64,000 nt of DNA, taken from the NCBI RefSeq assembly GCF_000272045.2, contig NZ_AJYZ02000042.1, positions 214,047 through 278,046 on the forward strand, in the 5' to 3' direction. Of the stretch, positions 883 to 17,790 are shown one piece after another. The notes under the pieces are model-generated. The model was not told the origin of the DNA and did no database searches. It was given only the letters and a program-made list of their open reading frames with translations. Numbering within the stretch: the first letter of the stretch is position 1; each line of letters begins with the position of its first letter. The translations under genes were made by a program, and so were the position numbers. This stretch comes from Vibrio crassostreae 9ZC13. Its GTDB lineage: Bacteria; Pseudomonadota; Gammaproteobacteria; Enterobacterales; Vibrionaceae.

Positions 883-897
883 TTCTCATATTGAGAA
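883..897. promoter_or_regulatory. Candidate SypG operator 1 upstream of sypA
   Basis: Perfect palindrome TTCTCA-TAT-TGAGAA centred near 890, about 79 bp upstream of the -24 GG of the sypA promoter. A second near-perfect copy lies 22 bp downstream, about two helical turns. Related palindromes precede the other sigma54-like promoters of this locus, so it is a plausible binding site for the activator encoded at 9879. Binding is inferred. Confidence 0.65.
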
Positions 898-904
898 ACG
901 TCTT

Positions 905-919
905 TTCTCAATTTGAGAT
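905..919. promoter_or_regulatory. Candidate SypG operator 2 upstream of sypA
   Basis: TTCTCA-ATT-TGAGAT, one base off the palindrome at 883-897. Its centre is 57 bp upstream of the -24 element, the same distance as the candidate site in front of sypM. Confidence 0.62.
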
Positions 920-967
920 AGGAATTCGTACTAAACATAAATTATTGAAAAATAACAACATAAAAGT

Positions 968-983
968 TGGCACATTCAGTGCA
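968..983 (+). promoter_or_regulatory. Sigma54 (-24/-12) promoter of sypA
   Basis: TGGCAC-ATTCA-GTGCA matches the RpoN consensus TGGCAC-N5-TTGCW, with the GG and GC dinucleotides correctly spaced. The predicted transcription start is near 994, about 20 bp before the sypA ribosome binding site. It lies downstream of two palindromic candidate enhancer sites. Confidence 0.8.
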
Positions 984-1016: not shown

Positions 1017-1346
1017 ATGGAACTACGTAAGACTGATTTAAACACAACGACACTGACACTTTCTATTTTCGGTGATCTGGATGCAGCAGGCAGTCGTGAT
1101 GCACAAACCGACATCGATGATGTGATTTCTAACGATGGTCACCCTGAAATCGAAGTTGATTTTAGCCAGGTTGAGTTTTTAGATTCATCTGGTGTTGGCG
1201 CGATTGTTTATATGTTCAAACGTCTGACTGAGCGCGAACGCAACATGCGACTTGAAAATGTGACTGGTCAGCCTCTTGAAATTATGAACCTACTACGTAT
1301 TGGCCACGCTATCCCAGTAAATTCAAAAAATCCTGCAAATTCATGA
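1017..1346 (+). CDS. sypA: STAS-domain protein SypA
   Basis: A single STAS (anti-sigma-factor antagonist) domain of 109 residues. The signature FLDSSGVGAIVYM carries Ser57 in the position phosphorylated in SpoIIAA-like proteins. In Vibrio fischeri the SypA serine is controlled by the kinase/phosphatase SypE, and unphosphorylated SypA is needed for biofilm. The ATG at 1017 is chosen because AAAAGGAGA sits just upstream; the longer frame from 891 would run through the sigma54 promoter. It is the first gene of the sypABCD operon. No SypE-like gene is visible in the window, so control of the serine may differ here. Confidence 0.88.
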   Translation: MELRKTDLNTTTLTLSIFGDLDAAGSRDAQTDIDDVISNDGHPEIEVDFSQVEFLDSSGVGAIVYMFKRLTERERNMRLENVTGQPLEIMNLLRIGHAIPVNSKNPANS

Positions 1347-1409: not shown

Positions 1410-2246
1410 ATGAAAATACTGAAAAACTACATAGCCCTTTCTCTGTCCGCTCTCGTTCTGGGTGGCTGTACTAGCTATCCTGAACAAGGCACAGGGGGTT
1501 TGGCTGAAAGTTACGATTCTATTAACTATCAAAACTCAGACTTCTCTCCTGTCATGCCAGACGAGCCTCTTGGTCCAGAACATGGATTACGCTTTGATTG
1601 GCAGCTCGCTAAATTGCACCTTGATGCTTTGATCCAAGAAGGTGCTCGTTGGTGTTTCCCAGCTGCTGTTGTTCAAGCAATCGAAAAGCAAAATCGTATT
1701 GCTCGTGAACTTCAAGGCGGTCTATTACTGGATGCAGCCAACGACTTAGTGATCCAAAGAAAACGCCTAAATGAACTTGAGGTCCAACTGGATTACGTAA
1801 CTTCACAAGCCCGCTGTGAGCCACCAAAAAATGAAAATCAATTTAGAATGCAACTGTCGGTTATTGAACAGTTGTATGACCTGCTTAATGTTGACAACCA
1901 ATTTGCGGAAAACTCGACTGAAGTAAATCCTAAATATATGGGAAGACTGGCCGAGGCGACCACTTTACTTAAAGAACACAAATCCCTAGACCTTGTTGTT
2001 ACCGGCCATGCTGATGCAACGGGTGCCGAAGAATACAACGACAAGTTAGCACTTGGACGAGCGAAACAAGTCGAACGCTACCTGACTATTTTTGGACTAG
2101 GCGCTCAACGAATCAAAGCCGTCTCTGTTGGCGAAACCGTCCCTCTTTTTGAAGGTGAATCCGACGGCACGCGTTTAACGAACCGCCGAGTAAGTATTGA
2201 AATTTTCTCGCCTAAGAATGCCGAGAAAATGGGAGGTGGATTATGA
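1410..2246 (+). CDS. sypB: OmpA-family lipoprotein SypB
   Basis: Predicted outer-membrane lipoprotein of 278 residues. The signal peptide ends in the lipobox LVLGGC (Cys at about residue 20). The C-terminal third is an OmpA-like peptidoglycan-binding domain with VVTGHADATGAEEYN and the conserved LGRAKQVERYL and TNRRVSIEI segments. It probably anchors the secretion apparatus to peptidoglycan. The stop codon overlaps the start of the next gene (ATGA at 2243), indicating translational coupling. Confidence 0.85.
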   Translation: MKILKNYIALSLSALVLGGCTSYPEQGTGGLAESYDSINYQNSDFSPVMPDEPLGPEHGLRFDWQLAKLHLDALIQEGARWCFPAAVVQAIEKQNRIARELQGGLLLDAANDLVIQRKRLNELEVQLDYVTSQARCEPPKNENQFRMQLSVIEQLYDLLNVDNQFAENSTEVNPKYMGRLAEATTLLKEHKSLDLVVTGHADATGAEEYNDKLALGRAKQVERYLTIFGLGAQRIKAVSVGETVPLFEGESDGTRLTNRRVSIEIFSPKNAEKMGGGL

Positions 2247-4342
2247 AATCCTTGATCGCTTTTATCATCACCCTACCGTTATGCTTTGCGAATGTCGTCA
2301 ATGCTAACGATGAGTTTTCAGACGCGGTTCAAGTCGGTGACCTTATCCAAGTTAACGTACCCGGTGAAAGTACCTTAAACACGGGGTTCCAAGTGGATAA
2401 GCGTGGCCGTATTACCCTTCCTGAAGTAGGCGCTGTGTTTGTTGCAGGTTACGACAGTGAGCAGCTTAACAAAGTGGTTCTAGAGTCGCTGGCAACCGCC
2501 TATAAAGATCTTTCGAACGCTTCAGTCTATGTAAAAGAGCAGCAAATCATCATCTACGTACAAGGTTATGTAGAACAGCCTGGTGAATACACTCTCGCAT
2601 TAGGTTCTAGCATCCAAATGGCACTTTACGCTGCGGGTGGTTTACGCCCGGGCGCGCAACTGGATAAGCTGATTCTTAAGCGAGGCGCAGACAAGAAAGA
2701 GTTTAACTACAAACGATTCCTTGATTCAGGAGACGAGTCAGCATTACCTACTCTTCAATCACTGGATTCACTATTCGTTCCAGCTTCTCCATTAGTCGGT
2801 AACATCGAGCAAGAATTTGACGCAGCAAAGCTTGCTAACTCAGGTGACAGTGCTGATTCTCGTAACTCCATCAAAGTGTTTGGTGAGGTGAACGCGCCGG
2901 GTTCGTTCACTTACAAAGAGAACACCGACCTTGTCGACGTACTTATGCGTTCGGGCGGCGTAACTCGTTATGCCAGTGTTGAGCAAATCCGAGTGATTTC
3001 GAACAACACCCCAACGCTATTCAACCTAAAACGTTACTTAGATTCTGGTGACGAAAGTCTGCTTCCAATTTTACGCCCGGGTGCGACCATTTTCGTTCCC
3101 AAGCAAGAAGAAGAGATCAAATCCGGCGCCAACATGGTTTACGTAATGGGCGAAGTCGCAGCCCCTGGTGCTTTTGAAGGCAAAAGAGACGCGACCTTTA
3201 TGGATATCTTGGCGAATGCGGGCGGCCCAACTCGATTTGCAGAGTCACGACAAATCCGTGTTATCAAAGCAGATGGCAGAGTGCTTAAATTCGATTTAGC
3301 GGCTTACACTGAAGGCTTACCTAACTCTAACCCTCCTAGCATCAAAGCTGGTGACGCGATTTTCGTTCCCGAGAAAACCGACATGAACGAGAAGTCTTGG
3401 TTGAAAATCACGCCAGACAGAGCAGTTAACGTGATTGGTGAGGTGAATCGACCTGGTCGTATTGAATGGTCAGATGAAATGAATTTCATGGGATTATTGG
3501 CACACGTCGGTGGCCCTACGCTACGCGCTGACACATCGAAAATCGAAGTTGTTACTGGTAGAAAGCTAGTTGTGTTTAACCTTGATGATTTTATTCGAAA
3601 TGGTGCGCCACGTGACCAAATGCCACAAATTCGAGCGGGCTCTATCGTGCGTGTTCACGACTTGCCACAAGATCCTTCAGACAATAAATCACAATGGGTT
3701 CGTCAAAGCTCTGATGCTTCGATCTACATCTTTGGACAAGTGAATGCACCCGGTCGTTACCGCTTCACCAAAGACATGCACTTCCTTGATATCTTGTCTG
3801 CGGCTGACGGTCCAACAAAGGACGCCGACATCCACAACGTTCGAGTAACGCATCGTGACAAAACCTATTCGCAAGTAAGCAAACTTAACTTATCACTGTA
3901 CTTTGAAACCGGTGACGAATCGTTACTGCCAAACGTAACCACTGGCGACACGATTTACATCCCAGAGAAAGGCAAAAACTGGTTAGATACACCGAAAGAA
4001 GAAACCGTTCGTGTGCTTGGTGCGATTAACAATCCGGGGCGTTATGTGTTCAACGACAACATGACCATTCTAGATATTCTGGCAGAAGCAGCAGGCCCTA
4101 CCGACAATGCTTATGTAGAAAAAATTACCATCGTCAATATGTCTTGCTGCCAAGGTCAGGCTCGTACTTTTGACCTTGTTGAATTCAGCAAAACGGCGAA
4201 CATTTACAATTTGCCGGTGCTACGCGCTGGTGACACGATTTACATCCCAGACCGTCGCGAAAGCTTTATTGAAAAAGCACGCGTCGGACTTGATGACATA
4301 CTGCGTATCACCACCACCATCGTATTAATAGGAGCTTTATAA
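2243..4342 (+). CDS. sypC: Polysaccharide export protein SypC with six SLBB repeats
   Basis: Wza-family periplasmic/outer-membrane exporter of 699 residues. The signal peptide ends near residue 21 (ANVVNA). A Poly_export domain occupies about residues 30-105. Six SLBB-type repeats follow, starting near residues 106, 212, 301, 396, 496 and 590, each beginning with a variant of GEVNAPG followed by a DIL..AGGPT segment. E. coli Wza has far fewer such modules, so this exporter probably has a tall periplasmic stack. The ribosome binding site lies inside the end of sypB, and the stop overlaps the sypD start by one base (TAATG). Confidence 0.88.
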   Translation: MKSLIAFIITLPLCFANVVNANDEFSDAVQVGDLIQVNVPGESTLNTGFQVDKRGRITLPEVGAVFVAGYDSEQLNKVVLESLATAYKDLSNASVYVKEQQIIIYVQGYVEQPGEYTLALGSSIQMALYAAGGLRPGAQLDKLILKRGADKKEFNYKRFLDSGDESALPTLQSLDSLFVPASPLVGNIEQEFDAAKLANSGDSADSRNSIKVFGEVNAPGSFTYKENTDLVDVLMRSGGVTRYASVEQIRVISNNTPTLFNLKRYLDSGDESLLPILRPGATIFVPKQEEEIKSGANMVYVMGEVAAPGAFEGKRDATFMDILANAGGPTRFAESRQIRVIKADGRVLKFDLAAYTEGLPNSNPPSIKAGDAIFVPEKTDMNEKSWLKITPDRAVNVIGEVNRPGRIEWSDEMNFMGLLAHVGGPTLRADTSKIEVVTGRKLVVFNLDDFIRNGAPRDQMPQIRAGSIVRVHDLPQDPSDNKSQWVRQSSDASIYIFGQVNAPGRYRFTKDMHFLDILSAADGPTKDADIHNVRVTHRDKTYSQVSKLNLSLYFETGDESLLPNVTTGDTIYIPEKGKNWLDTPKEETVRVLGAINNPGRYVFNDNMTILDILAEAAGPTDNAYVEKITIVNMSCCQGQARTFDLVEFSKTANIYNLPVLRAGDTIYIPDRRESFIEKARVGLDDILRITTTIVLIGAL

Positions 4343-5031
4343 TGACAATTTCAGCGACCCATGCCGAAGTCGAGCAACTGTATTTAGCTTCTGAACTTAA
4401 CGGCCAAAAATCAATATGCGTCACCGCCTGCCATTCAGGTGACGGCGTAACATCTATTGCAACCGCACTAGCTGAGCGTTTTCTTCTTGCGGGTCATTCA
4501 ACACTTTATGTTGATCTCAACTTATTCAACCCTGCTTTCAAAGATTTGAATATGCTAGAAGATAATCAGCAAGGTCAATTGATTGAACATGTTGAATCTC
4601 AGCGTACGTTTATCGGTGTACCTGCTCCACAAGTTGCTTCAACGCAATTGGCTTATAAAGATCCGACAACGTTACAAAAAGTGGTCAACAAATGGTTAGA
4701 GAAATACGACAGAGTCATCATTGATACCTCACCGCTTCTCAACATAAACAAAGGCAATATTCCGGCGCAGTCTGTCGCGAGCGCTTGTGGCAGTACACTA
4801 ATTGTTGTCGCCTATGGAGAAACGTCGAGTCACCACCTAGAACAAGCGAAAAAGCTGCTTGATGCACAAAGTATCAATCTAATGGGCTGCGTGATGAACA
4901 TGAAACAAAAGCCTAGCTTTGCACAAGAGTTGGTCAGACAAATCAATCGAATGAAATTTATCCCCGTTAAGCTTCGCGATAGCTTGGCAAACAAGCTGTA
5001 TCAAAATGAGTTTTTGAACCTGCCGATGTAA
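4342..5031 (+). CDS. sypD: CpsD/CapB-type BY-kinase-like protein SypD, degenerate P-loop
   Basis: Cytoplasmic MinD/CpsD-fold ATPase of 229 residues resembling the kinase partner of Wzz-type proteins. Visible elements are a Walker-A-like loop ACHSGDGVTS (residues 29-38), a Walker A' region LYVDLNLFNPAF and a Walker B strand RVIIDTSPLL. The invariant P-loop lysine is replaced by Val36, and A' reads DLN rather than DxD. There is no C-terminal tyrosine cluster. The fold is clear but catalysis is doubtful; it may act as a scaffold. It is the last gene of the sypABCD unit and is followed by a 575-bp spacer. Confidence 0.8.
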   Translation: MTISATHAEVEQLYLASELNGQKSICVTACHSGDGVTSIATALAERFLLAGHSTLYVDLNLFNPAFKDLNMLEDNQQGQLIEHVESQRTFIGVPAPQVASTQLAYKDPTTLQKVVNKWLEKYDRVIIDTSPLLNINKGNIPAQSVASACGSTLIVVAYGETSSHHLEQAKKLLDAQSINLMGCVMNMKQKPSFAQELVRQINRMKFIPVKLRDSLANKLYQNEFLNLPM

Positions 5032-5606: not shown

Positions 5607-6599
5607 ATGAAATACAAGTTAAGCTCCGTATTTTTGTTAGTAGCAGCAGCCAGCGGTAATGCTAACGCTGGAGAATGTGGCAGCGTAACAATCGCAGATA
5701 TGAACTGGAACTCTGCAACACTGATCGCCAATATCGACCAATTCATCCTTGAACATGGTTATGGGTGTGATGCTGAACTTATCCCTGGCGACACTATGCC
5801 AACAGGCACGTCTATGATCGAAAAAGGCCAGCCTGATGTTGCACCTGAACTTTGGAGCAACAGCTTAAAAGACGCATTAGATAAAGGTGTTGAAGAAAAA
5901 CGTCTTCGCTACGCAGGTAAAGCACTTGTGAACGGCGGCGAAGAAGGCTTTTGGGTTCCAGCTTACCTAGTAAAACAGTACCCTGAAATGGCAACCATCG
6001 AAGGCGTACGCAAAAACGCAAGCTTATTCAAACACCCTGAAGACCCAGATACATCTGCATTCTACAGCTGCCCTGCAGGCTGGAACTGTCAGATCAGCGC
6101 CGGAAACCTGTTTAATGCTCTTGAGCTAGAAAACAGCGGTTTCACGATTGTTGATCCAGGCTCGAGTGCCGGCTTATCTGGCTCTATCGCAAAAGCTTAT
6201 GAACGTGAAGAAGCTTGGTTTGGTTACTACTGGGCACCGACGGCTGTGCTAGGTAAATACGACATGGTTAAAGTCGACTTTGGCAGTGGCGTTAATGAGG
6301 AAGAGTTCCTTAACTGTACCACTAAAGAAGATTGTGAATCGCCAAAAGCGACCATGTACCCGCCTTCACCTGTTCACACGATTACCACTGAAAGTTTTGC
6401 GTCACGTGCTCCTGAAGCATACGACTACTTTACTAAACGTGGTTTCACGAACGACAAAATGAACTCGCTACTTGCTTGGATGGAAGACAACCAAGCTGAT
6501 GGCGAAGAAGCGAGTCTGCATTTCTTAAGTGAATTCCCAGAAGTATGGCACCCATGGGTTTCTGAAGAAGTGGCTAAGAAAGTTGAAGCAGAGCTGTAA
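5607..6599 (+). CDS. Glycine betaine/choline ABC transporter, substrate-binding protein
   Basis: OpuAC/ProX/ChoX-type periplasmic binding protein of 330 residues. The signal peptide ends ASGNANA-GECG. The mature protein starts with the VTIADMNWNSATLIANI segment usual for this family and is rich in aromatic residues that could form a cage for a quaternary ammonium ligand (for example GYYWAP). The RBS AGAAAGGAA precedes the ATG. Permease and ATPase follow, giving order X-W-V. Choline versus glycine betaine specificity cannot be decided by reading. Its position inside a syp locus is unusual. Confidence 0.85.
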   Translation: MKYKLSSVFLLVAAASGNANAGECGSVTIADMNWNSATLIANIDQFILEHGYGCDAELIPGDTMPTGTSMIEKGQPDVAPELWSNSLKDALDKGVEEKRLRYAGKALVNGGEEGFWVPAYLVKQYPEMATIEGVRKNASLFKHPEDPDTSAFYSCPAGWNCQISAGNLFNALELENSGFTIVDPGSSAGLSGSIAKAYEREEAWFGYYWAPTAVLGKYDMVKVDFGSGVNEEEFLNCTTKEDCESPKATMYPPSPVHTITTESFASRAPEAYDYFTKRGFTNDKMNSLLAWMEDNQADGEEASLHFLSEFPEVWHPWVSEEVAKKVEAEL

Positions 6600-6677
6600 G
6601 AGCTTGATTTAATAACAAGTAATTACGCTTCAACAATAAAACAGAAATAACGTCGCTATACTTGATGTTATTCATGA

Positions 6678-6731
6678 TTCGGAGCCCTTTTCATTAGCGA
6701 TTTTCTTATCGCATGGACAAGTGGCTCCGAA
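6678..6731 (+). other. Two-tier intercistronic hairpin between binding protein and permease
   Basis: TTCGGAGCC (6678-6686) pairs perfectly with GGCTCCGAA (6723-6731). Inside the loop GCGAT (6697-6701) pairs with ATCGC (6708-6712). There is no T-run. Such structures between binding-protein and membrane genes often stabilise the upstream transcript or reduce downstream expression. Function inferred. Confidence 0.55.
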
Positions 6732-6746
6732 CTATAAGGATATAAA

Positions 6747-7646
6747 ATGGCTGACAGCAATTGGTTATCAAGCTTTCCAGAGATGGAACGCGGTGATTTA
6801 CGAACCATAAAAAAGACGCTAGATGGCGCATACCGTGAATTTTCCCGTGAATACGGCGAAATGATTGAATCTCTCTTTGACCCTCTTCTTTCATTCCTCG
6901 TTTGGTTTGAAAAACTCCTTATCTCAACACCTTGGATTATAGTCCTGGCTGTGTGTACCAGCCTTGTCTACGCAGCAAGCCGTTCTTGGAAACTGGCTCT
7001 AGGCTGTGTTGCTTCTCTACTTCTCATTGGTTACTTTGGAATGTGGGAAGACACCATGCGGACGCTCAGTATCATCACTGTATGTACCTTGGTTTCAATA
7101 TTCTTGGGCATTCCGATTGGTATTGCGATGGCTCGTTCAAATCGAGCTCAGTCAATTGTTACGCCGATGCTCGATATCATGCAAACCATGCCTGCGTTCG
7201 TTTATTTGATTCCAGTGGTAATGCTACTGGGCATCGGTAAGATTCCAGGGCTAATCGCCGTGGTTATCTACGCGATTCCACCTGTAATTCGTCTAACTAA
7301 CCTAGGCATACGCTTAGTTGATAAAGAAGTCCTTGAAGCCGCTACCGCTTTCGGTGCGAGCAAAAAGCAACGCTTATGGGGTGTTCAACTTCCTCTAGCA
7401 ATGCCCACGATCATGGCGGGTATTAACCAAACCATCATGATGGCACTGTCTATGGTTGTTATCGCATCCATGATTGGTGTGAAAGGCCTAGGACAACCGG
7501 TTCTCAAATCGATTACTAACCAGTACTTCACATTAGGCTTGATGAATGGTTTCGCCATCGTTGCCCTCGCAATCCTTTTTGACCGCGCTTCACAAGCGTA
7601 CGCAAGAAGAACTAATGCGCATTTAGGAGGATTCAAGCATGACTAA
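6747..7646 (+). CDS. Glycine betaine/choline ABC transporter, permease
   Basis: ProW/ChoW-type inner-membrane permease of 299 residues. A soluble N-terminal stretch of about 60 residues precedes roughly six membrane spans. The binding-protein-dependent transport loop is recognisable around EAATAFGASKKQRLWGVQLPLAMP, where the permease contacts its ATPase. The RBS AAGGA lies 7 nt before the ATG. The 3' end overlaps the ATPase start by 8 nt, indicating coupled translation. Confidence 0.87.
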   Translation: MADSNWLSSFPEMERGDLRTIKKTLDGAYREFSREYGEMIESLFDPLLSFLVWFEKLLISTPWIIVLAVCTSLVYAASRSWKLALGCVASLLLIGYFGMWEDTMRTLSIITVCTLVSIFLGIPIGIAMARSNRAQSIVTPMLDIMQTMPAFVYLIPVVMLLGIGKIPGLIAVVIYAIPPVIRLTNLGIRLVDKEVLEAATAFGASKKQRLWGVQLPLAMPTIMAGINQTIMMALSMVVIASMIGVKGLGQPVLKSITNQYFTLGLMNGFAIVALAILFDRASQAYARRTNAHLGGFKHD

Positions 7647-8871
7647 ACCATTGATTGAAATTAGTGGTCTGTACAAGGTGTTTGGACCGAAACCAATGTC
7701 TGTTATGAACCGAGTTCAAAACGGCGAACACAAAGATCAGATTCTTGCGGATACGGGTCATACCGTTGGTTTGAAAGAGATCAACCTTGAGATTAACCGT
7801 GGTGAAATCTTCGTTATCATGGGGCTTTCTGGCTCGGGTAAATCGACGCTGATTCGCCACTTCAACCGTTTGATTGACCCGACTCAAGGTAAAATCATGG
7901 TTGAAGGCATTGATGTGATGAGCCTCAACACTAAACAGCTAGAAGAGTTCCGTCGTCATAAAATGTCGATGGTATTCCAACGCTTTGGCTTAATGCCTCA
8001 TCGCACTGTGGTTGAAAACGTTGCGTACGGGTTGGAAGTACAAGGCATCAAAAAAGAAGACCGTTTAGCAAAAGCCAACGAATGGTTAGAAACCGTGGGC
8101 TTGAAAGGTTACGGCAAGCAATACCCTGTGCAACTTTCAGGTGGTCAGCAACAACGTGTTGGCCTTTCTCGCGCTCTGTGTACTAACGCTGAAATCTTGT
8201 TAATGGATGAAGCCTTTTCGGCACTCGACCCTTTGATTCGAAGTGAAATGCAAGATCAGCTTATCGAACTTCAAGAGAAGCTTCATAAGACGATTGTTTT
8301 CATCACACATGATCTGGACGAAGCACTCCGCCTAGGCGATAGAATCGCAATTTTGAAAGACGGCGAGTTAGTACAACAAGGCACACCACATGAGATTCTG
8401 CTAAATCCAGCCGATGATTACGTGGAAGCGTTCGTGAAAGACGTAAACCGTGCTCGTGCACTGACCGTTGAAACCGTTATGCAGCCTCCTCTGTATCGAA
8501 TCACATCAGAAACGATTGAAGGTGCTCTGGCACAGATGAAGATGCTGAAAAACGATTACGCTTATCACGTAACGGATGACGGCTATCAAGGCCTAGTCAC
8601 ACAAGAGAGCCTACAAGACGCAGTTGAAGATTCATCGGTACATGATTTTAGTGATGAGATATACGAAGAAGTCCCTGCCATCTTACCAGATGCGGTGATT
8701 GAAGAAGTGCTACCGGACACTATGTCTTGTGACTACTCTCTTCCAGTTGTTGATGAAGACGGTAATCTAAAAGGTGAACTCGAGAGAAGCGCTGTTGCTG
8801 ATATCTTCTCAGAAAGTAGCGAGGAAGAAGTAGAAGCCGACCCAAAGCCAAAGATTGATAAAGCTTCGTAG
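7639..8871 (+). CDS. Glycine betaine/choline ABC transporter, ATPase with CBS region
   Basis: ProV/ChoV-like ATPase of 410 residues. Walker A is GLSGSGKST (about residues 66-74), the signature is [15 protein letters not shown], and Walker B is EILLMDEAFSALDP, followed by the H-loop FITHD. Residues after about 275 form a CBS-like regulatory module, which in ProV/OpuA proteins senses ionic strength. An acidic tail ends the protein. AGGAGG sits inside the end of the permease gene, just before the ATG. A strong terminator follows at 8964. Confidence 0.88.
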   Translation: MTKPLIEISGLYKVFGPKPMSVMNRVQNGEHKDQILADTGHTVGLKEINLEINRGEIFVIMGLSGSGKSTLIRHFNRLIDPTQGKIMVEGIDVMSLNTKQLEEFRRHKMSMVFQRFGLMPHRTVVENVAYGLEVQGIKKEDRLAKANEWLETVGLKGYGKQYPVQLSGGQQQRVGLSRALCTNAEILLMDEAFSALDPLIRSEMQDQLIELQEKLHKTIVFITHDLDEALRLGDRIAILKDGELVQQGTPHEILLNPADDYVEAFVKDVNRARALTVETVMQPPLYRITSETIEGALAQMKMLKNDYAYHVTDDGYQGLVTQESLQDAVEDSSVHDFSDEIYEEVPAILPDAVIEEVLPDTMSCDYSLPVVDEDGNLKGELERSAVADIFSESSEEEVEADPKPKIDKAS

Positions 8872-9250: not shown

Positions 9251-9655
9251 ATGAATTCTACTTTAGCGTCAGACGCAGCTACAAATCTAAACTCACAACA
9301 AGTGAGCGAGCTTGTCGATGAAAGCGTTCTGGAGCAAATGATTCGCGATACAAGTGCGGACATTATCCCTATCTTGATCGACCATTATGTCGAAGAATCA
9401 CAAACACGCTTGGTCGCTATAAAAGAGGCAGTCACGCAGAAAGACGCTCAAACACTTGAGTTCGAGGTCCACACTCTCGGCAGCACAGCGCTTTCGTTAG
9501 GTAATCGCCCTTTGGGTGAATTAGCTCGAGCTTTAGAAAAGCTATGTTTAGAACAGAGTCATGATGCGGCATTTCGACAAGTTGATGAATTACTAGAGCT
9601 CGCAGAGCGTTCAATAAAAGCCTTGCTTGAAAGGAAAGAGGCAGGCTTCAGCTAG
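9251..9655 (+). CDS. Stand-alone histidine phosphotransfer (HPt) protein in the sypF position
   Basis: A 134-residue HPt protein. The phosphoacceptor helix reads EVHTLGSTALSLGNRPLG with His74 as the likely phosphorylated residue. No kinase, HAMP, PAS or receiver domain is present. In V. fischeri the hybrid kinase SypF occupies this position next to sypG and relays phosphate through its C-terminal HPt domain. Here only that domain exists, so it probably receives phosphate from an unlinked hybrid kinase and passes it to the SypG-like regulator. AAAAGGA precedes the ATG at 9251; a TTG one codon earlier is less likely. Confidence 0.85.
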   Translation: MNSTLASDAATNLNSQQVSELVDESVLEQMIRDTSADIIPILIDHYVEESQTRLVAIKEAVTQKDAQTLEFEVHTLGSTALSLGNRPLGELARALEKLCLEQSHDAAFRQVDELLELAERSIKALLERKEAGFS

Positions 9656-9878: not shown

Positions 9879-11390
9879 ATGCGCCCTAAGGTATTGTTAG
9901 TTGAAGACTCCACCTCACTCGCCGTACTCTACAAGCAGTACGTAAAAGACGAGCCCTATGATATTTTCCACGTCGAAACCGGCGCGGAAGCTAAGACCTT
10001 CATTGAAAGGCACTCTCCACAGCTTGTGATTCTCGACCTTAAGCTTCCTGACATGCCAGGCGAAGAAGTCTTAGATTGGATTACTGCTAACGAAATACCG
10101 ACCGCTGTCATCATCGCGACAGCGCATGGTTCAGTAAACATCGCGGTAGACCTTATCCAACGCGGTGCAGAAGACTTCTTAGAGAAACCCATTCAAGCCG
10201 ATCGACTCAAGACCTCTGTTAGCTTGCATCTAAAAAGAGCGAAACTCGAAAACCTCGTCGATAACATGCAAAGCAAATTCGATCGTGATCGTTTTCATAA
10301 TTTCATTGGCTCTTGCCTACCCATGCAGGCGGTTTACAAGATCATTGATTCGGTAGCACCAACCACTGCCAGCGTGTTTATTAACGGCGAAAGTGGTACA
10401 GGTAAAGAAGTGTGTGCGGAAGCCATTCACCAAGAGAGTCAGCGTAATGGTAAACCCTTCGTGGCCATTAACTGCGGCGCTATCCCTCGAGACCTAATGG
10501 AGAGTGAAATCTTCGGTCACGTTAAAGGTGCGTTTACCGGTGCGACAACCGACCGGAAAGGTGCAGCAATGCAAGCGCATGGCGGTACCCTATTTCTCGA
10601 TGAGCTTTGTGAAATGGAACTGGAGATGCAGAAGAAGCTCCTCAGATTTTTGCAAACTGGTACGTTTACTCCACTCGGTGGCAACCGCGAGATTAAAGTG
10701 GATGTCAGAATTATCTGTGCGACCAACCGCGATCCACTGGTTGAAGTAGAAGAAGGACGTTTTAGAGAAGACCTTTACTATCGTGTTCACGTTGTGCCTA
10801 TCGAAATGCCACCGCTTCGTGAACGAGGAAGTGACATTGTCACCCTATCTAATCACTTCTTGAAACTTTACGCGAAGCAAGACAAGAAGAAGTTCAAATC
10901 AATAGACAAAGAAACGCAGAATCTACTTAAACGTTATGCGTGGCCAGGCAATGTGCGTCAGTTGCAAAACATCATCCGTAACATCGTGGTGTTGAACAAT
11001 GAAACGAGCGTGACTAAAGACATGTTACCGCCTCCGATGAATAAAGTAGATGCCGCTCCATCATCTAAATCAGTGACACCAATTCGAGTAACTGCGCCTC
11101 AACCTGCAGTTGTTGAAGCACCAGAAGCTAAGTTGCCACCGATTACTCCGGAAGAGTTGGAACAATCGTCAGTTGCTCAAGCTCACAACGAGCCGATGAC
11201 GCCTGCATTTACCACAAGCGAAGGTGCTATTCGTCCAATGTGGCAAATAGAACGTGAAGCCATTCAACATGCCATCAATCATTGCGATGGGAATGTGTTA
11301 AACGCTGCTGTGCTGTTAGAACTTAGCCCTTCTACTGTTTATCGTAAGAAACAGGCTTGGGAATCGGAAGATGAGTACAATCAAGCCTAA
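9879..11390 (+). CDS. sypG: Sigma54-dependent response regulator SypG
   Basis: An NtrC-class activator of 503 residues. The receiver domain has Asp53 as phosphoacceptor (ILDLKLPDMPG). The AAA+ domain shows Walker A GESGTGKE, the sigma54-contacting loop GAFTGA and Walker B GGTLFLDEL. A linker rich in Pro, Ala and Val precedes the C-terminal Fis-type helix-turn-helix (NAAVLLELSPSTVYRKK). In V. fischeri SypG activates four syp promoters with sigma54; four matching promoters are present here. The ATG at 9879 follows AAAAGGAA. The 3' end overlaps the next gene by 20 nt. Confidence 0.92.
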   Translation: MRPKVLLVEDSTSLAVLYKQYVKDEPYDIFHVETGAEAKTFIERHSPQLVILDLKLPDMPGEEVLDWITANEIPTAVIIATAHGSVNIAVDLIQRGAEDFLEKPIQADRLKTSVSLHLKRAKLENLVDNMQSKFDRDRFHNFIGSCLPMQAVYKIIDSVAPTTASVFINGESGTGKEVCAEAIHQESQRNGKPFVAINCGAIPRDLMESEIFGHVKGAFTGATTDRKGAAMQAHGGTLFLDELCEMELEMQKKLLRFLQTGTFTPLGGNREIKVDVRIICATNRDPLVEVEEGRFREDLYYRVHVVPIEMPPLRERGSDIVTLSNHFLKLYAKQDKKKFKSIDKETQNLLKRYAWPGNVRQLQNIIRNIVVLNNETSVTKDMLPPPMNKVDAAPSSKSVTPIRVTAPQPAVVEAPEAKLPPITPEELEQSSVAQAHNEPMTPAFTTSEGAIRPMWQIEREAIQHAINHCDGNVLNAAVLLELSPSTVYRKKQAWESEDEYNQA

Positions 11391-12546: not shown

Positions 12547-12561
12547 TTCTCAAAATGACAA
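12547..12561. promoter_or_regulatory. Candidate SypG operator upstream of sypL
   Basis: TTCTCA-AAA-TGACAA keeps the left half-site and the TGA of the right half of the sypA palindrome. Its centre is about 80 bp upstream of the sypL -24 element, nearly the distance of the distal sypA site. Confidence 0.45.
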
Positions 12562-12632
12562 AACTCACCTCAAGGCTACGCCCTCACTTAATAATCCAAC
12601 ATTAAATCAGTAAGTTAAATAAAATGCATAAC

Positions 12633-12648
12633 TGGCACTCACTTTGCA
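12633..12648 (+). promoter_or_regulatory. Sigma54 promoter of sypL
   Basis: TGGCAC-TCACT-TTGCA is a perfect match to the RpoN consensus. It lies about 80 bp before the sypL start in a 250-bp spacer that otherwise holds no gene. It is the best sigma54 promoter of the window. Confidence 0.88.
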
Positions 12649-12729: not shown

Positions 12730-14106
12730 ATGGTCAACCCTGAAGCCAATAGATTGCCAGTCATCATCACGATCAGCACCTTGTGTGTTGGGCTTGGTGT
12801 TGTTTGGTACTTTGTGCCTCACCCTGCTGTCATTGTGGCGCTCGCTCTTGTGCCATTGGCCGGGTTATTCGTGTTAAACAAAACATTCTGGTTAGTTCTA
12901 TTGTTCGTTGTCTTTTCATTTTTCCGAATTCACGAAGCTATACCTCAGCTCTATTCGCTAAAAATACCGCTGATGCTTTCATTAGGCGCTCTGTCGGCTC
13001 TTCTATGGCATGCATTAATCAGTAAAGAACTTAAAATCTTCTGGCACCCTTGTTTAAATTGGCTCGCCATATTTTGGGTATTGGTTTTCATTGGTATTAT
13101 CTTCGCGTCCAACAGGCCAATAGCACTAGCAGAATTCAAGGGCGTTTATTGGAAAATTATAGTGATGACGCTTGCGATTACTTGGCTAGTAAACACCACG
13201 GAAAATCTCGCAAAAACCGCGATGACGATCATCTACGCTGGCGCTTTAGTCAGCTCTATTGCCGTGTACAACTCAGTAAATGGTATTGGGCTTGTCGAGG
13301 GCTCACGCGTGACTATTGGCCGCGATTTTGGCTCTATGTTAGGTGACCCGAACGACCTAGCACTGGTACTGATGTTCCCACTCGCCTTTACAATAAGCCA
13401 AGCCACCACGACTGGCATCTCACGATCCAAACGTTTAATCAGTGCCTTAGTTTGTCTGTTACTGCTCGCCGCCATTATTGCGACTCAAAGCCGTGGCGGA
13501 TTACTGGGGTGTATTGCGGTGATTGGTATTTTTGCGTGGAAACTAGTGCGCTCTAAAGTTCTCTTAATCTCCGTAGGAACTGTCGTGGCCGTAGTGCTCT
13601 ACTTGGTTGCTGGGATCTCAGACAGATCTTCTGGTGGTGCCGCTGAACAAGGTATCGATGAATCTGCAATGGGGCGAATCTATGCTTGGGAAGCGGCAGT
13701 AAAAATGGCAGTTGAAAATCCACTGACTGGCGTAGGGTTGAACAACTTCTTCTCGAACTACTTCTTTTATAGTTCGCACTGGGACGGACTGAATCACGCC
13801 GTTCACAGTACTTGGTTTGGTGTGTTAGCAGAGACTGGCTTTATTGGTCTGATCATTTTTGTCTGCCTTATCGTTTCTTTGATCAAAACCTCTCGCTCTA
13901 CGCTAACGAGATTAAAAAACTCGACCACAGAAATCTCCCCCGAGCTTAATGCGGTCGCCTATGCGATCTATGCAGGTCTGATTGGCACAATAGTGTCGGG
14001 GACATTTTTGACTCAAGGCTTCAACTGGCCGATTTATATCCTCGCAGCACTCACAGTTTGCGCCTCAAACGTATCTCAAACTGCCTGTCAAAATGAGAAA
14101 ACCTAA
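12730..14106 (+). CDS. sypL: O-antigen polymerase/ligase-family membrane protein SypL
   Basis: Polytopic inner-membrane protein of 458 residues with about ten to twelve hydrophobic spans, of the Wzy_C/O-antigen ligase superfamily. Conserved features are LGDPNDLALVLMFPLAF, the SRGG segment and the large periplasmic loop with NPLTGVGLNNFF and HAVHSTWFGVLAETG. It probably polymerises the exported repeat units. The ATG at 12730 is preceded by AGAGGT; the upstream TTG at 12712 lacks a good RBS. Confidence 0.82.
   Translation: MVNPEANRLPVIITISTLCVGLGVVWYFVPHPAVIVALALVPLAGLFVLNKTFWLVLLFVVFSFFRIHEAIPQLYSLKIPLMLSLGALSALLWHALISKELKIFWHPCLNWLAIFWVLVFIGIIFASNRPIALAEFKGVYWKIIVMTLAITWLVNTTENLAKTAMTIIYAGALVSSIAVYNSVNGIGLVEGSRVTIGRDFGSMLGDPNDLALVLMFPLAFTISQATTTGISRSKRLISALVCLLLLAAIIATQSRGGLLGCIAVIGIFAWKLVRSKVLLISVGTVVAVVLYLVAGISDRSSGGAAEQGIDESAMGRIYAWEAAVKMAVENPLTGVGLNNFFSNYFFYSSHWDGLNHAVHSTWFGVLAETGFIGLIIFVCLIVSLIKTSRSTLTRLKNSTTEISPELNAVAYAIYAGLIGTIVSGTFLTQGFNWPIYILAALTVCASNVSQTACQNEKT
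14085..14099. promoter_or_regulatory. Candidate SypG operator upstream of sypM
   Basis: CTGTCA-AAA-TGAGAA matches 10 of the 12 defined positions of the sypA palindrome and lies in the last codons of sypL. Its centre is 57 bp upstream of the sypM -24 GG, exactly as for the proximal sypA site. Confidence 0.5.
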
Positions 14107-14147
14107 AAGCTATATTTTAACTCATTGAAAATATTATATTTATTAAA

Positions 14148-14163
14148 TGGCACAGTATATGAA
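14148..14163 (+). promoter_or_regulatory. Weak sigma54-like promoter of sypM
   Basis: TGGCAC-AGTAT-ATGAA has a perfect -24 element, but its -12 dinucleotide is GA instead of GC. The position before sypM and the phased operator support it; the imperfect -12 argues for low activity. Confidence 0.45.
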
Positions 14164-17701: not shown

Positions 17702-17716
17702 TTCCCATTTTGAGAA
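17702..17716. promoter_or_regulatory. Candidate SypG operator upstream of sypP
   Basis: TTCCCA-TTT-TGAGAA is one base off the perfect sypA palindrome. Its centre is about 67 bp upstream of the sypP -24 element, one helical turn further than the 57-bp sites. Confidence 0.58.
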
Positions 17717-17774
17717 ATGAAAACTGCCCTAGAATTGAATAATCTAAACGCATGAAAAATATAGGTTATTTAAT

Positions 17775-17790
17775 TGGCACAACTCCTGCA
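17775..17790 (+). promoter_or_regulatory. Sigma54 promoter of sypP
   Basis: TGGCAC-AACTC-CTGCA has a perfect -24 element and a GC at the -12 position with correct spacing. The TTG at 17774 cannot be the gene start because it overlaps this promoter. Confidence 0.78.

Follow-up and report, generated by a model that had tools for sequence, protein, structure and literature searches.

The window analyzed here is a 64,000-nt stretch of the Vibrio crassostreae 9ZC13 genome (contig NZ_AJYZ02000042.1, positions 214,047–278,046 of the forward strand), near the start of which lies a syp polysaccharide locus (Table 1). Between sypD, which ends at 5031, and sypG no kinase gene was found; the interval consists of proX, proW, proV and a gene for a small HPt protein. 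The transporter genes sit at the same position in many related loci and look like an unrelated insertion within the regulatory interval. For two genes we chose an ATG over the start of the mechanical ORF call, i.e., over TTG 9248, one codon earlier, for the HPt gene and over TTG 891 for the sypA-like gene. The phosphoacceptor Asp53 of SypG is conserved in all 148 SypG sequences that have a residue at this alignment position, and SypG is the presumed phosphate acceptor of the HPt protein.

Table 1. Features of the syp locus in the window, with one feature of a related locus (last line).
Feature	Position	Strand	Remarks
Two SypG-enhancer-like palindromes (883–897, 905–919) and -24/-12 site (968–983)	883..983	+	upstream of sypA
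sypA-like STAS protein gene	1017..1346	+	Pfam STAS
sypB (OmpA), sypC (Poly_export/SLBB), sypD (AAA/tyrosine-kinase-like)	1410..5031	+	ORFs, Pfam
proX-proW-proV, glycine-betaine-type ABC transporter	5607..8871	+	between sypD and HPt; Pfam OpuAC, ABC_tran/CBS for X, V
Stand-alone SypF-type HPt gene	9251..9655	+	ATG 9251, stop codon ends 9655; 134 aa, His74
sypG	9879..11390	+	ATG 9879; receiver, sigma-54 AAA+ and Fis-type HTH (HTH_8) by Pfam; Asp53
SypG-enhancer-like site and perfect -24/-12 site (12633)	12547..12648	+	upstream of ORF 12712
Weaker enhancer (2 mismatches) and -24/-12 site (14148, 2 mismatches)	14085..14163	+	upstream of ORF 14199
Enhancer-like site (1 mismatch) and -24/-12 site (17775, 1 mismatch)	17702..17790	+	start of next polysaccharide gene group
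PF12974 protein gene before SypF	L026:3065-3889	+	plus 34 other loci

Putative SypG target sites were sought with the enhancer motif as quoted in PMC10162802. Three strict enhancer/-24/-12 pairs are present in the window (at 968, 12633 and 17775), compared with an average of 0.005 over 200 shuffles; looser matching adds the pair at 14148 (four, against 0.245 in shuffles); these pairs precede sypA and three later gene groups. Neither motif taken singly exceeds chance in the window (enhancer, 39 vs. 36.6; sigma-54, 51 vs. 41.6), nor does the loosest pairing (six, against a mean of 2.0 and a maximum of six in 60 shuffles). As no paired site was found in the window upstream of the HPt gene or sypG, both genes are probably outside SypG's own control.

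The preliminary description had called the neighbor of sypG a 134-residue HPt protein with His74 and without kinase or receiver domains, and Pfam bears this out: Hpt is the sole domain (PF01627; residues 42–120, 46.8 bits, cut-off 24.6), which makes this a stand-alone HPt protein. His74, as counted on the translation, lies within LEFEVHTLGS; the motif histidine is present in 139 of 139 aligned syp HPt domains and is the putative phosphorylation site. An AlphaFold2 model built from 74 aligned sequences (mean pLDDT 92.2, pTM 0.82) predicts the HPt helical bundle, and its closest solved structure is HptB of Pseudomonas aeruginosa (7c1i; Z 16.5, rmsd 2.0, 115 residues)—likewise a free HPt, though with weak sequence similarity (22.6 bits). 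HptB receives phosphate from several orphan hybrid kinases. The window protein is 99% identical to the HPt of V. splendidus 12E03; in the record of that strain (L132, G239) sypG is split over two frames of 205 and 326 aa, by mutation or sequencing error.

Judged by sequence, this is a SypF-type HPt and neither LuxU nor ArcB. It shares 46% identity over 114 aa with the C-terminus of Aliivibrio fischeri SypF (blastp; 87.4 bits by phmmer) and scores 118–125 bits against its V. diabolicus, V. harveyi and V. coralliilyticus homologs. The scores for seven further HPt proteins encoded in the same genome are 20.4, 12.8, 6.1, 5.7, 5.5, 3.2 and 0.1 bits, the ninth HPt protein, in a 731-aa CheA-like frame, having been left out of the comparison. 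Among the seven are the proteins that, from size and neighbors, we take to be LuxU-like (5.7 bits; named from the adjoining 462-aa receiver protein) and ArcB-like (3.2 bits). The proposed alignment to the V. fischeri SypF HPt thus came out in favor of SypF (87 bits, against 5.7 and 3.2 for the LuxU-like and ArcB-like proteins). LuxU is likewise a free HPt and feeds the sigma-54 activator LuxO in vibrios; with 5.7 bits to the LuxU-like protein of its genome against 87.4 to SypF, the window protein is not its counterpart. With A. fischeri SypF it has in common, besides the sequence, the place upstream of sypG and the conserved His motif. However, that protein (record L252) is a 766-aa hybrid kinase, whereas the window protein lacks sensor, HisKA, HATPase and receiver and is therefore a SypF-type HPt rather than a SypF.

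A full-length sypF elsewhere in the genome, which the preliminary description had named as one finding that would overturn its view of the HPt as standing in place of SypF, was looked for in an assembly 99.99% complete in 43 contigs and was not found. The HPt protein has a single match in the genome at E ≤ 1e-6, its own. A 790-aa SypF query from the nearest lineage having SypF (E ≤ 1e-90) matched in 0 of 43 free-HPt genomes, the window's included, and recovered SypF in nine of nine control genomes. The hybrid kinases fetched from this genome align to SypF over the kinase and receiver parts, or weakly beyond (best 252 bits). SypF is thus absent from the genome, but "in place of" proves too simple a wording, as four relatives carry SypF and the free HPt together.

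The same arrangement recurs widely. The 150 best matches listed from a SypG search of 296 Vibrionaceae genomes were each fetched with 11 kb upstream; 149 of these loci were classed (L152, at a contig edge, was dropped), and weaker SypG matches were left out. Among the matches listed, the HPt is free in 73 of 149 sypG loci and part of a full SypF in 54; the remainder comprise both forms (4), a membrane-anchored HPt (2), a split SypF (2) and none (14). One locus first classed as none (L112), whose HPt lies in a 769-aa open frame, was manually reassigned to full length, and the split (L131, L153) and membrane-anchored (L123, L134) classes were assigned by eye. Among named records (best 80 of 103 relatives), 34 are free, 45 full and one intermediate (213 aa, split), with SypG just downstream in 79 of these 80 and the other cut by the contig end. 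Free HPts occur in V. splendidus, V. lentus, V. chagasii, V. harveyi, V. owensii, V. jasicida, V. rotiferianus, V. diabolicus and V. aestuarianus, among others, and full-length SypF in, e.g., V. coralliilyticus, V. neptunius, V. europaeus, V. proteolyticus and A. fischeri. The natural "HPt alone" form of SypF is real and conserved and makes up roughly half of the syp loci studied. The earlier proposal that this locus had naturally adopted a free HPt stands as to a conserved arrangement under selection, but not as to anything special to the locus (73 of 149 among the matches listed).

Some of the less common layouts are of interest in themselves. In two loci of the Aliivibrio group (L123:10232-10942, G049; L134:10217-10942, G044) proteins of 237–242 aa combine hydrophobic N-terminal segments with an HPt and lack kinase and receiver; read by eye, they are membrane-anchored HPt remnants. 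In ten Vibrio loci (L136–L140, L143–L146, L151) sypD is followed directly by sypG, with no HPt found and Asp53 kept. A phosphonate-binding-type periplasmic protein (PF12974) is encoded upstream of SypF in 31 of 54 full-length loci and in all four loci with both forms, and in 0 of 73 free-HPt loci (among the matches listed); it is probably SypF's sensing partner, lost together with SypF.

Full-length SypF looks like the ancestral state: all eight records of the named set (best 80 of 103) titled outside Vibrionaceae genera, five of them unplaced gammaproteobacterial genomes, have this form beside SypG. In a FastTree phylogeny built from SypC+SypD+SypG (149 rows, among the matches listed; rooted on the Grimontia/Enterovibrio group), parsimony gives 13 changes between free or anchored and full forms, or, with regain disallowed, 16 kinase losses, two of which leave no HPt. 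With some deciding nodes weak (support 67, 62, 34, 6), "about a dozen" is a fair statement of the number. In the window's lineage, simple truncation of SypF was considered as the origin and rejected as too simple in view of the kinase tree and the four species with both forms (G092, G100, G108, G170), where the gene order is binding protein–SypF–proXWV–free HPt–SypG. The kinase part of SypF in these species and that of G161 are sisters (support 100), in agreement with the locus tree; their SypF was therefore probably inherited, and their free HPt groups with the window-type HPt. Since SypF, proXWV and free HPt stand together in these relatives, the free HPt of the window lineage probably arose beside SypF, the SypF unit being lost later. 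The SypF-borne HPt of the four species has a poorly resolved tree position (support 14), which leaves the duplication undated. The Harveyi-type clade, in which the HPt starts 6–15 bp after sypD, differs in layout from the window and is a separate event on the tree.

The pattern of substitution indicates that the HPt is under purifying selection. Its median dN/dS is 0.095 in the window's clade (141 pairs), where SypG has 0.049 and ProX 0.036; few usable pairs (3–12) were available from other clades. Divergence relative to the SypG AAA+ domain is 2.0–3.0 fold for free and 1.8–2.8 fold for fused HPts, and, these ratios being alike, freedom from the kinase did not visibly relax the HPt.

We consider it probable (roughly 80%) that the HPt protein takes phosphate from one or more orphan hybrid kinases and passes it to SypG to turn on syp, SypF having been repeatedly lost and the HPt–SypG pair kept. 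Specifically, the receiver of at least one hybrid kinase encoded elsewhere would phosphorylate His74, His74 would pass the phosphate to Asp53 of SypG, and phosphorylated SypG would activate the sigma-54 promoters that drive the syp polysaccharide genes; the kinase SypF, which would formerly have carried out the first steps, appears to have been lost repeatedly in Vibrionaceae while the pair was retained. The sequences themselves establish the SypF-type character of the HPt, its position beside SypG, the lack of SypF, the recurrence and the selection, whereas the course of the phosphate, SypG as its target and a donor encoded elsewhere are inferred. The closest precedent is a sypF-HPt construct in V. 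fischeri, in which the HPt alone, beside a working SypG and fed by other kinases, complements a sypF deletion and restores biofilm (PMC12369376, PMC11841056). That construct is of laboratory making, whereas the free HPt here is natural and found in 73 of 149 loci (among the matches listed). In V. parahaemolyticus a D53A variant of SypG (ScvE) fails to restore biofilm (PMC8941931); the available part of that paper reports no SypF ortholog in the species and leaves the phosphate donor of SypG open, and the term "HPt" is absent from its text. Against the relay reading stand a dN/dS that in the window's clade is higher for the HPt than for SypG by a factor of about two (0.095 vs. 0.049) and 14 loci (among the matches listed) that keep Asp53 with no HPt at the locus, so that SypG can be served otherwise, perhaps by LuxU, as has been reported for V. 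fischeri.

HPt relays are reversible, and the protein might instead act as a brake, mainly draining phosphate from SypG to a BinK-type kinase/phosphatase. BinK is predicted to strip phosphate off SypF's HPt in V. fischeri (PMC11841056), yet there the HPt alone restores biofilm (PMC12369376, PMC11841056), and no BinK ortholog was identified in this analysis; we regard a braking role as improbable. We give even less credence to the idea that the HPt is a functionless leftover with SypG fed by LuxU or small phosphodonors. In V. fischeri LuxU is able to act on SypG and can partly take the place of the SypF HPt (PMC12369376), and the ten Vibrio loci that lost the HPt entirely kept Asp53 (among the matches listed). 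However, a leftover would hardly be expected to show an invariant His, purifying selection and a divergence unchanged from that of fused HPts, or to be retained in 73 loci (among the matches listed) on many separate branches.

Which kinase would feed the relay to SypG is a separate matter. The genome encodes 12 hybrid kinases without an HPt of their own (judged from shared open-frame lengths), of which L164, L165, L167, L169 and L172 were profiled and L166, L168, L170, L171, L173, L174 and L175 left out. Three were rejected as donors. L172 is found in 6 of 80 genomes, and L167 is not exclusive, being present in 10 of 40 syp-negative genomes as well as in 31 of 40 with a free HPt. L169 looked exact in the 80-genome sample but is also present in G161, a full-SypF species, in the 296-genome search, where shorter or more distant relatives occur in other groups; it marks a clade.

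A specific form of the relay reading names HahK (HqsK), the H-NOX-associated hybrid kinase (L164 in this genome, with H-NOX adjoining), as the donor, such that the free HPt would carry a nitric-oxide-sensitive signal to SypG. HahK is the sole one of the five profiled kinases that tracks syp: among Vibrio genomes, 123 of 131 with syp and 6 of 63 without it have an ortholog (E ≤ 1e-100; Fisher p 4e-33, uncorrected for descent; states of G163, G209 and G287 taken from the HPt protein search), whereas the control kinase L165 is present in 79 of 131 and 35 of 63, respectively (p 0.54). In V. fischeri HahK signals via SypF's HPt and LuxU (PMC12369376), and the genes for H-NOX, HahK or both lie just upstream of sypA in nine loci with a free HPt. 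But these nine loci form one clade and hence count as one event (in one of them, G201, the HahK frame stops inside the receiver domain), no HahK match was obtained in three genomes with a free HPt (G126, G192, G287), and in genus g8 HahK occurs in 36 genomes, of which four have a SypG match above 700 bits (among the matches listed). Ueno et al. (2019) purified the three stand-alone HPts of V. parahaemolyticus, and, in the available passages of their paper, the HahK ortholog HqsK phosphorylated LuxU only and not VP1472 in vitro (PMC6759604). Because this published phosphotransfer result is negative, we lowered our estimate for HahK and now think it rather unlikely to be the donor; as the single published donor test, it also counts against the relay reading as a whole.

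VP1472 bears directly on the window because, as we infer by locus-tag order from VP1476, which is SypA in V. parahaemolyticus (PMC4517449), it is the ortholog of the window HPt, i.e., a stand-alone HPt encoded by the same gene. The available passages of PMC6759604 do not tie it to syp, a term that occurs in them zero times. A literature search, with subscription journals mostly outside its reach, found no paper that connects a free HPt with syp in any species but V. fischeri, and VP1472 in one paper. The free HPt would fill the missing relay step in V. parahaemolyticus and points to VP1472, already purified by others, as the protein concerned.

The relay reading extends, tentatively and at somewhat less than even odds, to the view that HPt–SypG is a socket from which the SypF kinase, with its periplasmic binding partner where there is one, was shed repeatedly and to which each lineage couples another orphan hybrid kinase—H-NOX/HahK, for example, in the clade whose H-NOX and HahK genes came to lie beside sypA. 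If so, one biofilm output would have been rewired to new signals by gene loss rather than gain. The SypF kinase expected beside syp is missing in many marine Vibrio, where another kinase probably provides the signal. In roughly a dozen natural replicates the kinase was lost and the HPt retained; with species pairs available on both sides of this change, phosphorelay rewiring becomes directly testable.

Two further observations concern neighboring or similar genes. In two of the loci fetched (L114, L098) the stretch upstream of sypA, at the border of the syp locus, carries VgrG-like type VI secretion genes. Elsewhere in the V. crassostreae genome (L177:3252-5179), a 110-aa free HPt overlaps the end of a 533-aa receiver protein that has no other Pfam domain, and the two form an uncharacterized relay pair.
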